A stretch of 64,000 nucleotides of DNA from Thysanoteuthis rhombus (Eukaryota > Mollusca > Cephalopoda > Oegopsida > Thysanoteuthidae), in the NCBI GenBank assembly GCA_963457665.1, contig OY735207.1:48398696-48462695 (forward strand), in the 5' to 3' direction. Below the pieces are notes generated by a model. It ran no database searches. It was not told the DNA's origin and saw only the letters and a list, made by a program, of their open reading frames with translations. Below are positions 1-54,165 of this stretch, piece after piece. Both the position numbers and the translations under genes were made by a program. Each line of letters opens with the position of its first letter. Within the stretch, counting starts at the first letter, position 1.

Positions 1-3000
1 TGACATTTAAGAGTAACTTTGCCGCTTAATAACAACTACTTGATGAAATTTCTGACATATCCCTTGTCTTTTCTAACGAGAAGAACAAATATTTAATTGA
101 AAATGTGATGAAGGAAGTCTTCGCATTTGACAGCTTTATCTTGGTCAAATCCTACAAAAATGTGTGATAAGAGAAATGCTCTATGTAATTGAAATAACCA
201 TCCTATTCTTGGCTAGCTGTGTCAGATATACCCTTTTGGTTAGGGCTTCGTTTCTGGGTGATAAGTCTACAAATGTCCTGATAAAGGTTATCAGAATTGC
301 TGATATTTACTAATTTACTGAAAAACTGTCATTCCTTTTAGAAATTTTTCTTTCAGATACGGTTGTAGATTATATCCAAATGTTAGAAGAGAAAAAGGTG
401 AACTTTTCTTTTCTTTGGTGTTGTTAAAATTGTGCTAGAATTCCTTTACACTTCACAAAATAAATATGGCATTTCTTTTCAAAAAATGAGTTAATTTTGG
501 ATACTGGATTTTATGTTACATTTTAAAGTAAAATTGATAAGATAAAACGTGTATAAATCATCATCATGTCAGTACAATGATATAGTGATCAGTGACGTAT
601 GGGGTATGCATAGGTGTGCTCTGAATTACGGATGCAGAAAAGCGTGAAAATATTTTAGTGTCTGTAAAAAGCAATGTGCATTAAAGGCCTTTTTTGGTGC
701 AATGTAGTGAAGGTGGTTAAAATTTTGAATTTCGAAGTTGTACATTTTTATCCATTCGATTTCACAAACGGCAAACAAATATAAAGAAATGAGAAAATAA
801 TAAAAAGTCTCTTAGTAGTAGAAAATCTTAAAATTACCGTAATTAGCGGACGAACAGTAAAACAGGATTTTATTGCCAATGGCGTTTAAAAGACATTGAG
901 ATGTTTTAGCATTTTTGTGCATCCATAGCTAGCAGCACACATGGGATACAAAGCACCTTACGCTATTGATATTAATGTTCAAGAATTTTTTTTTTATATT
1001 CTGGTTGAATCTTAGGGAGGTTTTTAATAATGAAAATGATACTGGAAATGCTTTTTGCAGAGAAAACTTCATGCAATCAATTTTATCCAGAAGTTCTATC
1101 AAGTACAGAAAATTTGTGAAAATAATGCGAATCCGAAGTGAAGTGAATTCTGCAAGTAAAGTAGTTGGGGAACAAAAACAAAACGTCAAAATGAAAGTCT
1201 TAAAAAAGAAAATTGAGGAAACGCTTGAAAATATACAGGAAAATATTTCAATATCTCACATTTATCTCTATAAAAGCCCGTGCGATTTGGTTTTGAGATA
1301 CGCAAAACATAGCACGTTATGTTTAAACTGGAATATACCCGTCAAATATGCCAGGGTTTTGTATGTATAGATCTGCACTAAGTAGCCTGAAACTATTCGA
1401 TTGTGGATTTTTTTTTTAATAATTGAAATAACTTAATTTTCAAGTTTTTTCCTTAGTCTCAAGTTTAGCTTCTTTATTGTTTTATGAACCATGAAGTCGT
1501 AACAGTTTGTTTTATGACATAATCGATTACGTTACTGTTATGCCATGATAGGAAGGGGAATTAACCAATATTTTGCATACACAACTCCAAAATACGTCTA
1601 TAATATACCGGTAAAATCTATAAGTAGTTCATTCCAACTATGTAGGTACAAAATACATCGAAGATTTTACCAATGATCTCAGACAATTTATTGAAAATTT
1701 GGAGCGTTTACTTAAGTTTTAATTGCAAAAAAAAGTATCGAGTTAGTTGTAAAAATAAAATCCACCTTTGAATCCTTTAAGTAGAATTTTAACTGTTTTT
1801 GATTTTTTTTTTCTCCAAATTAGAACTAACTTCAACGCAATGATTGACTTTTGCTCCCAGAAAAATTTGAACTGTGTAATTAGAAATATTCTAAAAATGA
1901 AGTAGCGGTTTGAGGATTCGACGAAGTTTTTGTCAATTAAATAACTAATTGACGAGATTTTGATAAGAAGAATGTTACTTACTTTTTACTTGAAATATGC
2001 TTAACAAGAACAAAATCTTCATGGTGTATTCACGTGCCTCTGAAATAGAAACCACGGATAAAAGTGATCGCAAGAAGAAAAAACTTTAAGTTGTAGATAA
2101 TTGATTTTTCTAAATACTGGACGTGTCTGGAAAGTTTTGTTTTAAACGTTGATAATGGCATAAAATTTCTTTAAAATGTACAACTAAATAGAATCATTAA
2201 TATTCATTTGTGAAATTGTATTGAATGTTGCAAACTTGACTCATATTTTAAAAAGACAATTTCAATCTATAATCCCATGTTTGTGAACGCTGGTGACGTA
2301 TTTTCACATCCATCGCAAGGACTGTTTTAAGAGAAAAAGAAATGATTTTTCTTGGATGAAAAAAAAGAGAAAAAGGATCACCGGATTTGAGATCGGTAAT
2401 ATTTTTCCTATCACAGGGATAGATTAAGCAAATAATGATGCACGTCAGTTAACACAGGGTAATTAATCTTTTTTTAAATTAATGACGTCACTTAACTGTG
2501 GACAAACAAAGTGAGTTACAGAGATGTTTGGCTCAACAAAAAATTAATTTGTTTACTGCAGTGTCCGTACCCACCCACTAAGCTCAAAGGTCAAGCGGGC
2601 GTCGGACCATTTTTCTATGCTCGTACGTGATAAAAACCGGTTCTAATCTACGAGTGTCCCACGGAGCATTGAAGTATGGATGATGAATAATGACATAACC
2701 AGATATTCTTTAAAAAAATGCAAGAGTATATTTGCATTATCAAAACAGCATCTTATGACGGACACCACTCTAGTTCTGTTGATGATAAGCTGATGTAAAC
2801 ATCATAAATTATTAAACGTCATCAGATGATTGGAAGTATAAAAAAATCTTTGTTAAATATATTCTGGGTATATTTGAAAAAAAACTTTACGGATTTCAAT
2901 CAGTCGGCAAAACCATTGAGTACAGAAAACTGACATTACAATATGCATACAAAAGGCTCAAATTGAATTCCATAAGTAAGAACAGCGCAAAACGTGATGT

Positions 3001-17238: not shown

Positions 17239-17289
17239 TACTTCTATTAATATTCGGACCGTCCTCATCTTGGTTGTTTTTCATACAAC

Positions 17290-17322
17290 GTTTCGGCCGT
17301 TGCACTCTACAGCCTTCATCAG
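17290..17322 (-). ncRNA. Hammerhead-like core, left arm
   Basis: On the minus strand: CTGATGA (17316-17322), a stem II whose left strand carries one change (GGCTGT instead of GGCCGT), then GAAAC (17290-17294). Stem I pairing is poor. It is probably a decayed minimal hammerhead and inactive alone. Confidence 0.4.
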
Positions 17323-17415
17323 GAATCATTTGGTAGGTGTGGGGAAGTGCAGTCAATATACCCCCGTCGGATAAATAAAGGGTTCGGTTCGTTACATCCC
17401 CACACCTACCAGATG

Positions 17416-17460
17416 ATACTTGATGAAGGCCGTAGAGTGCAACGGCCGAAACGTTGTATG
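17416..17460 (+). ncRNA. Hammerhead-like core, right arm
   Basis: TTGATGA (17420-17426), perfect stem II GGCCGT/ACGGCC, GAA (17448-17450), then ACGTT. ATAC before the core can pair with GTAT after it, giving a 4-bp stem I. The first core base is T rather than the invariant C, so self-cleavage is not expected. Confidence 0.4.
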
Positions 17461-20204: not shown

Positions 20205-20348
20205 CACAGTATATGTGGTACAAATAAGACTAGCAGTATAACATAATGTAATAATATATCAATAACATAAAGCCACTTCTGATGAGGCCCGAATAGGGCA
20301 GAAACATGAGCTAGTTTGTGTAGCGAATCTACATTCGGCTATCTATTA

Positions 20349-23770: not shown

Positions 23771-23961
23771 GGGATCCAAAATGAATCTAAGCTCAAACAG
23801 AAGACAGAAACATAAACATGTTTGTGTAGCAAATCTTTATCTCATCGTATCTAAAGCTCTACTTCAACTTAACTTGATGTTTCATGTTAAAAGTATGGAA
23901 GCACTTCATGAAACAAACACATCGAATATATCTACATATATTATACTGGATTCCCGATTCG

Positions 23962-38588: not shown

Positions 38589-38597
38589 GTGAAAGGT

Positions 38598-38657
38598 AGT
38601 TATGCTACACAAACACGTTTATGTTCCCATCCTGTTTGGGCCACTTCAGGTGAATGA
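38598..38657 (-). ncRNA. Hammerhead motif at 3' end of PLE remnant
   Basis: Minus strand: CTGAAGT in place of CTGANGA, GGCCC then AAACA in the loop, and GGA in place of GAA. Stem III ACAT/GTGT around 'aaacgtgttt' and the UA cleavage position before GC are intact. TCATTCAC before the core and GCATAACT after pair poorly. It is degenerate but lies on the same strand as, and about 400 nt downstream of, the last PLE coding block. This is the expected position in a PLE terminal repeat. Confidence 0.6.
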
Positions 38658-39064
38658 TTTTGTACGTTTTAGATTCTTGTTTGGGGAATTTGTGGGTGTT
38701 GCAAAGTTACATTACGTAACATTACGTGTAGGATTTATAAATAAAAGTACGCTGAAAAGTCTTCTAAGGGATCTTTTGATCTTAACCTTGATTTTTACAT
38801 TAAATTTATTGCCTATGTCAGGATCCTTTATGGCCATGGGTGATTGTATTGTTCTCAATTAATTAGTCATGGGGGGGAGTAAATAATGTTGATAAGATGT
38901 TTGTTCACGGTGATGAGTACGTGGATAAACTGTCGATATTACTTTTGGTGATTTAATGTATGGGGTTCTGAGTTATTTTTATCAAAGAGAATTTTGAGCG
39001 ATGCCAGCATTTTTTGGGCTATTTCATTTTTCCTGTTTAATAAATCTTCGTTATTTTTTATTCG

Positions 39065-39437
39065 TTATTTTAACAAAATTGAGTATTTCAAATTTCTTAT
39101 TCATACAGAAGTAACATGGATTTTCCATATTCTGGTATATATTGGTTTGTCATGAAATTTTCGTTTTTACTGTTGATTCGTAATAAATTCAGTACATTTT
39201 TCAGTAATATGTAGTCAATGTATTATTTTTATATTTTCCGTTCATAAAAGATGTTGTATGGTTGGCTAATCTAAGTTCAAATGACGTTTCCGATATTCCG
39301 ATATAATATTTTAGTTTTAAGGGCCTTTCCTCGGTTGATGTATCTACTTGGTGCACTATATTTGATCTGAGACGTGTGTTTTGCAGAGGGCAACCATTCT
39401 TAATGGTACAATTGCAGTCTTGTTTGTTTATGTTCAT
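39065..39437 (-). pseudogene. PLE GIY-YIG endonuclease domain, broken
   Basis: The open part (39201-39437) holds 'CNCTIKNGCPLQ', which matches the Cys-rich motif before the PLE nuclease, then 'YYIGISETSF', an Arg, 'NHTTSF' and 'KYKNNT', matching the YIG, Arg, His and Asn blocks of PLE GIY-YIG domains. The first half of the GIY-YIG motif is altered ('IVHQV' where I would expect a GIY/VYKA-like block). Three in-frame TGA codons follow; at least one falls where the family has Trp, suggesting TGG to TGA decay. After them the CxxC block continues in frame. In live elements this nuclease is thought to nick the target for reverse transcription. Confidence 0.85.
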
Positions 39438-39592
39438 GATTTACTTATTTCTGTTGTTCCGATAATTCTATTATGTTTTGTAATGATTGTATTGAAATTT
39501 TCAGTACAACTAAAGCTGATTTTACAATTCGTTTTTGTTCAATATTTTGCTTAGTGGATGTTTTTGGGGGTGGGGGAATTATAAGAATATAT

Positions 39593-51480: not shown

Positions 51481-51483
<3 letters not shown>

Positions 51484-51550
<67 letters not shown>
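51484..51550. repeat. (TA)n microsatellite
   Basis: About 33 TA units forming the left boundary of the hammerhead element. Confidence 0.97.
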
Positions 51551-51553
<3 letters not shown>

Positions 51554-51696
51554 AATGCAAACCAGGAATGCCCTATAAGATGATATAATATGATACAATA
51601 TCAGATGTATGATGGGTTTAATCCACGAAGTGCTCGATAAATTCAACATCAAACATAAATTTGATTTAGAGCAGAGCTTGGAATATAATGTAACAA

Positions 51697-51756
51697 GGAT
51701 TCGCTACATAAACACGTTAATGTTTCTGCCCTATTTGGGCTTCTTCAGGCGAATCC
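51697..51756 (-). ncRNA. Type I hammerhead ribozyme, best copy
   Basis: Minus strand, 60 nt. Stem I: GGATTCGC pairs perfectly with GCGAATCC. Core CTGAAGA (CUGANGA; position 7 is variable in natural hammerheads). Stem II: GCCC/GGGC closed by AAATA, with an A.A mismatch at its base where G-C is usual. Then GAA. Stem III: ACAT/ATGT with a 10-nt loop. The cleavage position is the A of ATGTA, directly before GCGAATCC (between 51705 and 51704), which satisfies the NUH rule. Stems II and III are closed and stem I is open, so the topology is type I, as in PLE, schistosome and retrozyme hammerheads. The mismatch may lower activity. Confidence 0.82.
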
Positions 51757-51761
51757 TTCAT

Positions 51762-51815
51762 CTGAAGATTTCCAAAAAAAGCAGAGCATAAATGTGTCGT
51801 GTAGCGAATCTTTAG
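51762..51815 (+). ncRNA. Degenerate hammerhead, head to head
   Basis: Plus strand: CTGAAGA, a stem II region decayed to 'tttccaaaaaaagca', GAG instead of GAA, then 'cataaatgtgtcgtgta' and the intact GCGAATCT strand. Shares 'gaatcc' with the 5' end of the minus-strand copy. Confidence 0.55.
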
Positions 51816-51817
51816 TC

Positions 51818-51821
<4 letters not shown>

Positions 51822-51877
<56 letters not shown>

Positions 51878-51914: not shown

Positions 51915-52820
51915 CATGGAGCAGTGCTGACCCGGGGAAACTGATACCCTGCAGCTGGGACGAGTAATAATAGGAGAGCCCAAAAACGAGTCCAAAGGCC
52001 TCCAATGCGTGTGACAGTGCGTAGACTCAGTGAAACCTCATTGGCTAACGCATTGCACCGGCGCACCCGGTCTTTGATACACACCGTCTCCGGCCCACTC
52101 GGCAGGCAAGTGTCAGTACTGACCCTCAGTCTCTGACGTGGAACAGATGCTACACTTTAATATTTCAAGAGGCTAGAAAAAGTGGTGGGTTCTATTTATG
52201 TATGGTCCCCCCACGGCGGAATTTGACGCAAGGTCGGGCTTAACCTGGGGAAAATAGGAGATATCCTTCAAAAAGTGGCTCCAGCCGACGCGGCTATGGT
52301 TCACTTTGTAGCCAAAGCAACCTCCACCACGAAAATGTTCACCAGGGGACCTGCTCCTTTAAGTGCAATGCAGCAGTGCTGCTCCGGGGAATCTATTCAT
52401 CTACTGTCCCACCACAGCGGAACAAGGTTCGGCTTAACGTGGGAAGAATAGGTAACCACTTCCAAAAATGGCTCCAGCCGACGCGACTTCGATTGACAAG
52501 CGACCGTAGAAACTAAAGCAACCTCCATCACGAAAGCGTCCACCAGGGGACCTTCTCCTTTAAGTGCAATGGAGCAGTGCTGCTCCGGGGAAACTGTTCC
52601 CCCGCAGCTGAGCCGAGTAATAGTGGGAGACCTCGAGGACGAGTCCAAAGGCCTCCAATGCGCTTAGCAGTGGCAGCCTCAGTAAAACTTCATTGGCTAA
52701 CGCATTTGATACACACTCCCTCTCCGGCCCATTCGACAGGCAAGTGTAAGTACCGACTCCTCAGTCTATGCTGGGGAATAGATACTACACTTTTATCCTG
52801 CCCAAAAAGGCCAGAAAAAA
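51915..52820 (+). repeat. GC-richer A-B-B-A duplicated block
   Basis: About 900 bp clearly richer in G+C than the rest. A copies: 51917-52195 and 52567-52815, sharing 'gagcagtgctg', 'cgagtccaaaggcctccaat', 'cattggctaacgcatt' and 'ctccggccca.tcg.caggc'. B copies: about 52196-52385 and 52386-52580, sharing 'tggctccagccgacgcg', 'aaagcaacctcca.cacga' and 'ccaggggacct.ctccttta'. Copies are directly repeated and about 80-85% alike by eye. Short frames on both strands do not persist between copies, so coding is unlikely. Not a family I recognise. Confidence 0.8.
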
Positions 52821-54029: not shown

Positions 54030-54165
54030 CGGAGAGTGCTTGTTGTATTCAATGTTGAACATTAAGTTGACTTAGAGTGGAGCTTGAAAAATGATGGAGA
54101 AAAAAGAAGCCCATATAGGACAGGAACATAAACAACGTGTTTTTGTAGCAAATCCCTTATTTAAT

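Follow-up and report, generated by a model that had tools for sequence, protein, structure and literature searches.

The window analysed here, a 64,000-nucleotide stretch of the Thysanoteuthis rhombus genome (contig OY735207.1, positions 48,398,696 to 48,462,695), carries on its minus strand at 51697-51756 a type I hammerhead ribozyme motif, which belongs to a large repeat family of this genome and forms one arm of an insertion of ~270 bp between two (TA)n tracts. The partner arm begins where the motif ends, giving a head-to-head inverted pair. Read from 51756 to 51697, the motif is GGATTCGC-CTGAAGA-A-GCCC-AAATA-GGGC-A-GAA-ACATTAACGTGTTTATGT-A-GCGAATCC, in which the conserved type I core letters (C3 U4 G5 A6, G8 A9, G12 A13 A14, A15.1-U16.1 and H17) are all present, as are three helices with an open-ended stem I. 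Stem I pairs GGATTCGC (51749-51756) with GCGAATCC (51697-51704), and the perfect pairing noted in the original prediction extends over 10 bp rather than 8 once AA/TT is counted. The core CTGAAGA occupies 51742-51748 and GAA 51724-51726, stem II (GCCC/GGGC) is formed by 51737-51740 and 51728-51731, and stem III (ACAT/ATGT) continues, beyond one T.T mismatch, with two further pairs. A17 is position 51705, which places the predicted cut at 51705/51704. Every element of the layout was found where it had been predicted.

A descriptor consisting of the core, a 4-pair stem II (one base mismatch allowed), GAAA, a 4-pair stem III, NUH and stem I matched 51697-51756 alone on both strands of the window, with stem I set to 4, 5, 6, 8 or 10 bp, and matched nowhere in 400 dinucleotide-shuffled windows (stem I of 4, 5, 6 or 8 bp). 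The Rfam model Hammerhead_1 (RF00163) aligned over the whole length of the motif, but at 20.5 bits, and no Rfam hit reached the gathering cut-off of 34 bits. At the base of stem II, A51741 faces A51727 and is unpaired, whereas the 10.1-11.1 position of type I hammerheads is normally paired. Further, stem I is an unbroken 10-bp helix that allows no contact between loops I and II, a tertiary contact which is a feature of fast hammerhead variants. The isolated 76-nt piece folded much more strongly than its shuffles (z -4.9; 0/200), its minimum-energy fold having a shifted hairpin in place of stem III, and for the 64-nt motif the best fold was 3.0 kcal/mol more stable than the hammerhead fold. When the RNA of the whole insert was folded, the arm paired with the inverted arm and the motif was buried.

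A 121-bp query returned at least 53 matches in the 2.73-Gb genome, itself included, though many were partial and a single place was in some cases hit on both strands. A pattern of the core in which certain positions were left free had 1,893 exact matches genome-wide, compared with none for the reversed control, and we estimate that the genome holds some two thousand or more copies of the motif. A profile of 20 copies recovered 72 copies from 32 sources, namely 31 loci and the window, which holds six of the copies, and 54 of the 72 were aligned, the remaining 18 being partial, gapped or weak. At least two subfamilies are present, A (CTGAAGAAGCCC) and B (CTGATGAGGCCC); the profile search supplied five of the B rows, and the B copies L053-L055 are no test of core conservation because they were picked by the exact core pattern. 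All core letters are kept in 29 of the 50 full-span 62-nt copies. The seventh pair of stem I is G-C in 23/54 aligned copies and the eighth in only 7/54; the long stem I of the original prediction is thus present but partly peculiar to the window copy. Paired cells amounted to 70.6% in helix I, 81.5% in helix II and 91.2% in helix III, or 80.5% overall compared with 29.8-41.8% in slid controls. The shuffled mean was 80.7%, however, and the compensatory changes in the three stems that had been looked for among relatives did not exceed shuffles over the 54 copies, which fits neutral decay; RNAalifold found no common structure either. In ten further sources Rfam reported three family copies at 19.0-20.9 bits, others being absent up to E 5, and the subfamily-B pairs L053-L055 gave no Rfam hammerhead match up to E 5.

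Between the majority forms of A and B there are eight differences from C3 on, yet none falls in the core and no pair is broken, the differences in stems altering one side only with pairing kept. When changes were drawn at random and assumed to be independent, the share of trials that equalled this tolerance was 0.03% for uniform and 0.17% for transition-biased changes. The hammerhead is the best fold of majority form A (gap 0.0) and lies 0.4 kcal/mol off in B. The base of stem II usually has A facing A or G, and by hand count 91 of the first 100 matches listed carry A at 11.1; the A.A mismatch, named earlier as a reason for caution, is indeed there, but as the usual state of the family. By the same count, 11.1 is T in five and C in two of the first 100, and all seven face G at 10.1, so that their stem II base could pair; these copies may be better ribozymes.

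The complete core, NUH cut site and three helices, the 10-bp stem I with its strong isolated fold and the absence of any such motif from 400 shuffled windows would suit a functional stand-alone type I hammerhead which, judging from its letters, could cleave a transcript at 51705/51704 and have a role at the locus. We consider this very improbable. As a main reading it was rejected on the sub-threshold Rfam score, the folds (both the 3.0 kcal/mol deficit of the hammerhead and the pairing of arms in the whole-insert RNA) and the covariation, and it is further opposed by the A.A at the base of stem II, the lack of a stem I loop and the fact that this is one among many decaying copies, an intact core being left in 29 of the 50 full-span ones. 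Based on the pairing of the arms in the whole-insert RNA and covariation equal to that of shuffles, the window copy is probably inactive, and efficient cleavage is not expected. The description of a well-preserved, possibly self-cleaving ribozyme is not supported for 51697-51756: 'well-preserved' is apt for the motif but not for the element, which is a ~270-bp insertion with a degenerate partner arm.

The suggestion that a Penelope-like element (PLE) might be the carrier fared better. Hallmarks of PLEs are a reverse transcriptase with a C-terminal GIY-YIG endonuclease, terminal repeats in a frequently inverted arrangement, one of them tailed, and a preference for AT-rich targets. Longer copies of the family contain, a few hundred bases upstream of the motif, PLE-type protein sequence that probably includes a GIY-YIG nuclease portion. 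Some motif copies run on directly into PLE sequence, and in locus L052 the motif lies 3' of the stop of the open reading frame (ORF). The window itself holds a motif copy downstream of such a protein remnant (39054-39578), which was matched in tblastn by P0007 (37% over 123 aa, E 8.8e-18) and also by P0001, P0003, P0004 and P0014 (E 3.3e-8 or lower). The PLE protein search found none in 15 of 22 sources, Pfam and NCBIfam returned unrelated sub-threshold names or nothing for the protein pieces, Foldseek on its own gave no significant match, and homologues P0002-P0004 carry the precomputed label PF26215.1. A DNA transposon with terminal inverted repeats, an idea prompted by the inverted arms, was dropped because the body translates to a PLE-type protein. 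Cumulatively, we are confident that the motif is a terminal-repeat hammerhead of a PLE family widely spread in the genome, and that the window copy is a relic of it. A chance resemblance without ribozyme history, with which the sub-threshold Rfam score and covariation no higher than in shuffles would be compatible, is extremely improbable considering the 400 shuffled windows without a match, the whole core and all pairs kept by subfamilies A and B despite eight other differences, and the linkage to PLEs, which are known hammerhead carriers. A partial tandem, an arrangement described for PLEs, is present in L047 (4112-7185), with two PLE fragments that point the same way and are 71% alike over ~1.27 kb.

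Table 1. Hammerhead copies and associated features in the window.
Feature	Position	Strand	Evidence
Type I hammerhead motif, long-tail arm	51697-51756	-	Sequence; descriptor and shuffles; family profile 73.9 bits (the copy itself, as L002, is among the 20 seeds); RF00163 20.5 bits
145-nt long tail of this arm, up to the (TA)n tract	51552-51696	-	Tail score 113; shuffled-tail maximum 27
Degenerate partner hammerhead, head-to-head, short tail	51754-51813	+	Profile 25.2 bits, E 2.8e-6; without long tail
(TA)n tract, one insertion end	51483-51551		Boundary read from sequence
(TA)n tract, other insertion end	51820-51868		Boundary read from sequence
Decayed motif copy, short tail, downstream of PLE protein remnant	38596-38657	-	Profile 43.0 bits
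PLE protein remnant (reverse transcriptase C-terminus / GIY-YIG region), ~400 nt upstream of the 38657 copy	39054-39578	-	tblastn
Subfamily B copy (CTGATGAGGCCC...), without stem I 5' strand	20271-20332	+	Profile search
Decayed copy, long tail (class L)	23775-23838	+	Profile 35.9 bits
Decayed copy, short tail, inverted long tail fused upstream	54093-54157	+	Profile 37.1 bits; upstream part by eye

The pairing of arms seen at 51697-51756 recurs in the sample. Long tails follow 34 of the 72 copies and short tails 38, 'short' denoting tails that do not resemble the long one (scores of at most 21, against at least 44 for 'long'). Each of the 23 nearest inverted pairs that fall within 1,200 nt combines one long with one short tail, as do, by eye, three separately picked pairs, making 26/26 in total. 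The head-to-head share is not a genome frequency, because L002-L051 were selected for resemblance to a query that spanned the junction and some of the partner arm. In 13 of the 17 inverted pairs that lie close together, the two C3 letters are 6-19 nt apart, and in the three further pairs 6, 6 and 10 nt; in L005 and at 54093-54157 an inverted long tail is joined at or near stem I. A (TA)6+ tract lies within 80 nt downstream of 28/38 short-tail copies (6% at random positions) and 90-260 nt downstream of 29/34 long-tail copies (11% at random positions). In L012 the short arm is truncated inside the motif.

Animal retrozymes without long terminal repeats (non-LTR retrozymes) consist of tandem 150-450-bp hammerhead units and form circular RNA, and a non-autonomous element of this kind, with tandem type I hammerheads and mobilised by a PLE, would explain why many copies are merely motif and tail and why 15 of 22 sources lack PLE protein. 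Four same-strand neighbour pairs do occur within 600 nt (start-to-start 189, 201, 322 and 558), three of them 189-322 nt apart, and PLEs and retrozymes co-occur in animals according to the part of PMC7229834 cited here. However, each of these pairs includes at least one weak copy (19-27 bits), no regular same-strand array of three or more units was found in the 32 sources, inverted pairs are commoner (23, though the sample favours them) and there are copies that run without a break into PLE sequence. We therefore regard a retrozyme as a most unlikely explanation of the family, a retrozyme-like origin being kept for part of it because the four same-strand pairs exist. The axolotl hammerhead HHR_Amex2 is similarly of type I with a mismatch (U.U) at the helix II base, and its monomer cleaves weakly, 22% in one hour, in the cited part of PMC7229834; compared with Amex2 and the animal non-LTR retrozymes as presented there, the window family lacks regular tandem arrays and a stem I loop, and some of its copies are linked to PLE protein.

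Hammerheads of PLEs were reportedly described by Cervera and de la Pena in 2014 and Lunse et al. in 2017. The present family resembles them in its type I layout, PLE association and many dispersed copies; known PLE hammerheads reportedly have weak activity, or cleave only when dimeric or aided by protein. The present family differs from them at the stem II base, where A faces A or G, and in its helix III, which has 7 bp in the family majority form and is neither missing nor minimal; the hammerheads of PLE pseudo-LTRs, according to PMC7761336, are minimal, without helix III or loop contacts, and of unknown role. With the search words used, no account of the 51697-51756 hammerhead family was found in the open literature, and it adds to the PLE hammerheads a family with a longer helix III. 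By analogy with other PLEs, the hammerhead of the parent element probably supported slow cleavage of multimeric or protein-bound RNA.

Considering the PLE assignment, the inverted pairs can be compared with two known systems. In the sections of PMC3846280 on which we draw, Penelope of bdelloid rotifers has inverted terminal repeats, a tail on one, and palindromic junctions, and the window family shares these head-to-head repeats, the optional one-sided tail and the palindromic junctions. Its tail, 145 nt in the window copy, is longer than the 31 bp reported there, most of its copies lie beside (TA)n, and any counterpart of the 9-10-bp target duplications of rotifer Penelope would not be recognisable within (TA)n. 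For PAc of Anolis, PMC11167929 states that the tail is set by two internal start sites, from which the enzyme extends both strands, that cleavage by the hammerhead needed PAc protein and that the hammerhead was dispensable for insertion; the PAc hammerhead overlaps the start codon, whereas the downstream copy of L052, the one compared, follows the ORF stop.

Based on the rotifer layout and the two start sites of PAc, we take each pair to represent one insertion event with two complementary DNAs (cDNAs). The element nuclease would open a TA-rich site, reverse transcription of the element RNA would be primed on each strand from a different internal start site, giving rise to a long and a short tail, and the two cDNAs would be joined 5' end to 5' end at hammerhead stem I. 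That stem I is the joining site of PLE insertions, through the complementary ATTCGC/GCGAAT arms of opposite-strand cDNAs, is a tentative and rather doubtful proposal. If the cDNAs do end and join at the stem I arms, the ribozyme sequence would serve insertion architecture, as a junction or in self-priming, and this role could exist besides, or in place of, RNA cleavage. While the single window copy has no special importance and is mostly ordinary, the family contributes both a PLE hammerhead whose helix III is real and a very large insertion set, and since many inverted junctions in that set fall on the ribozyme, it is a good natural sample for PLE integration and for asking whether the ribozyme itself or its mere sequence is needed.

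Several other features were seen alongside. Many Rfam matches to microRNA families fell on (TA)n/(CA)n or on inverted arms and were not taken as genes. Near a motif copy, L014 666-747 (+) matched tRNA at 33.1 bits (Rfam cut-off 29) and is possibly a tRNA gene or a tRNA-derived short interspersed element. At L001 ~1501-1544 (+) (G000:C6:42974529-42974572), a hammerhead of another family, CACTGAAGAGTC..GACGAAACAGCTGTCTGTGG, scored 35.6 bits with Hammerhead_1, above the cut-off, and was the sole match to this model reported genome-wide among the 73 of 299,496 candidates that were scored; in its relatives at L007 2501 (-) and L011 1811 (+), the stem II bases differ yet pair, by eye. In the window, 51916-52796 contains direct-repeat blocks ~200 and 640-650 bp apart that are 82-91% alike (families D3-D8), and 17262-17450 (-) holds, by eye, a different hammerhead-like motif (CTGATGAAGGCTGTAGAGTGCAACGGCCGAAACGTT) with an inverted partner ~100 nt upstream, so that another repeat has a head-to-head layout like that of the 51697-51756 pair.
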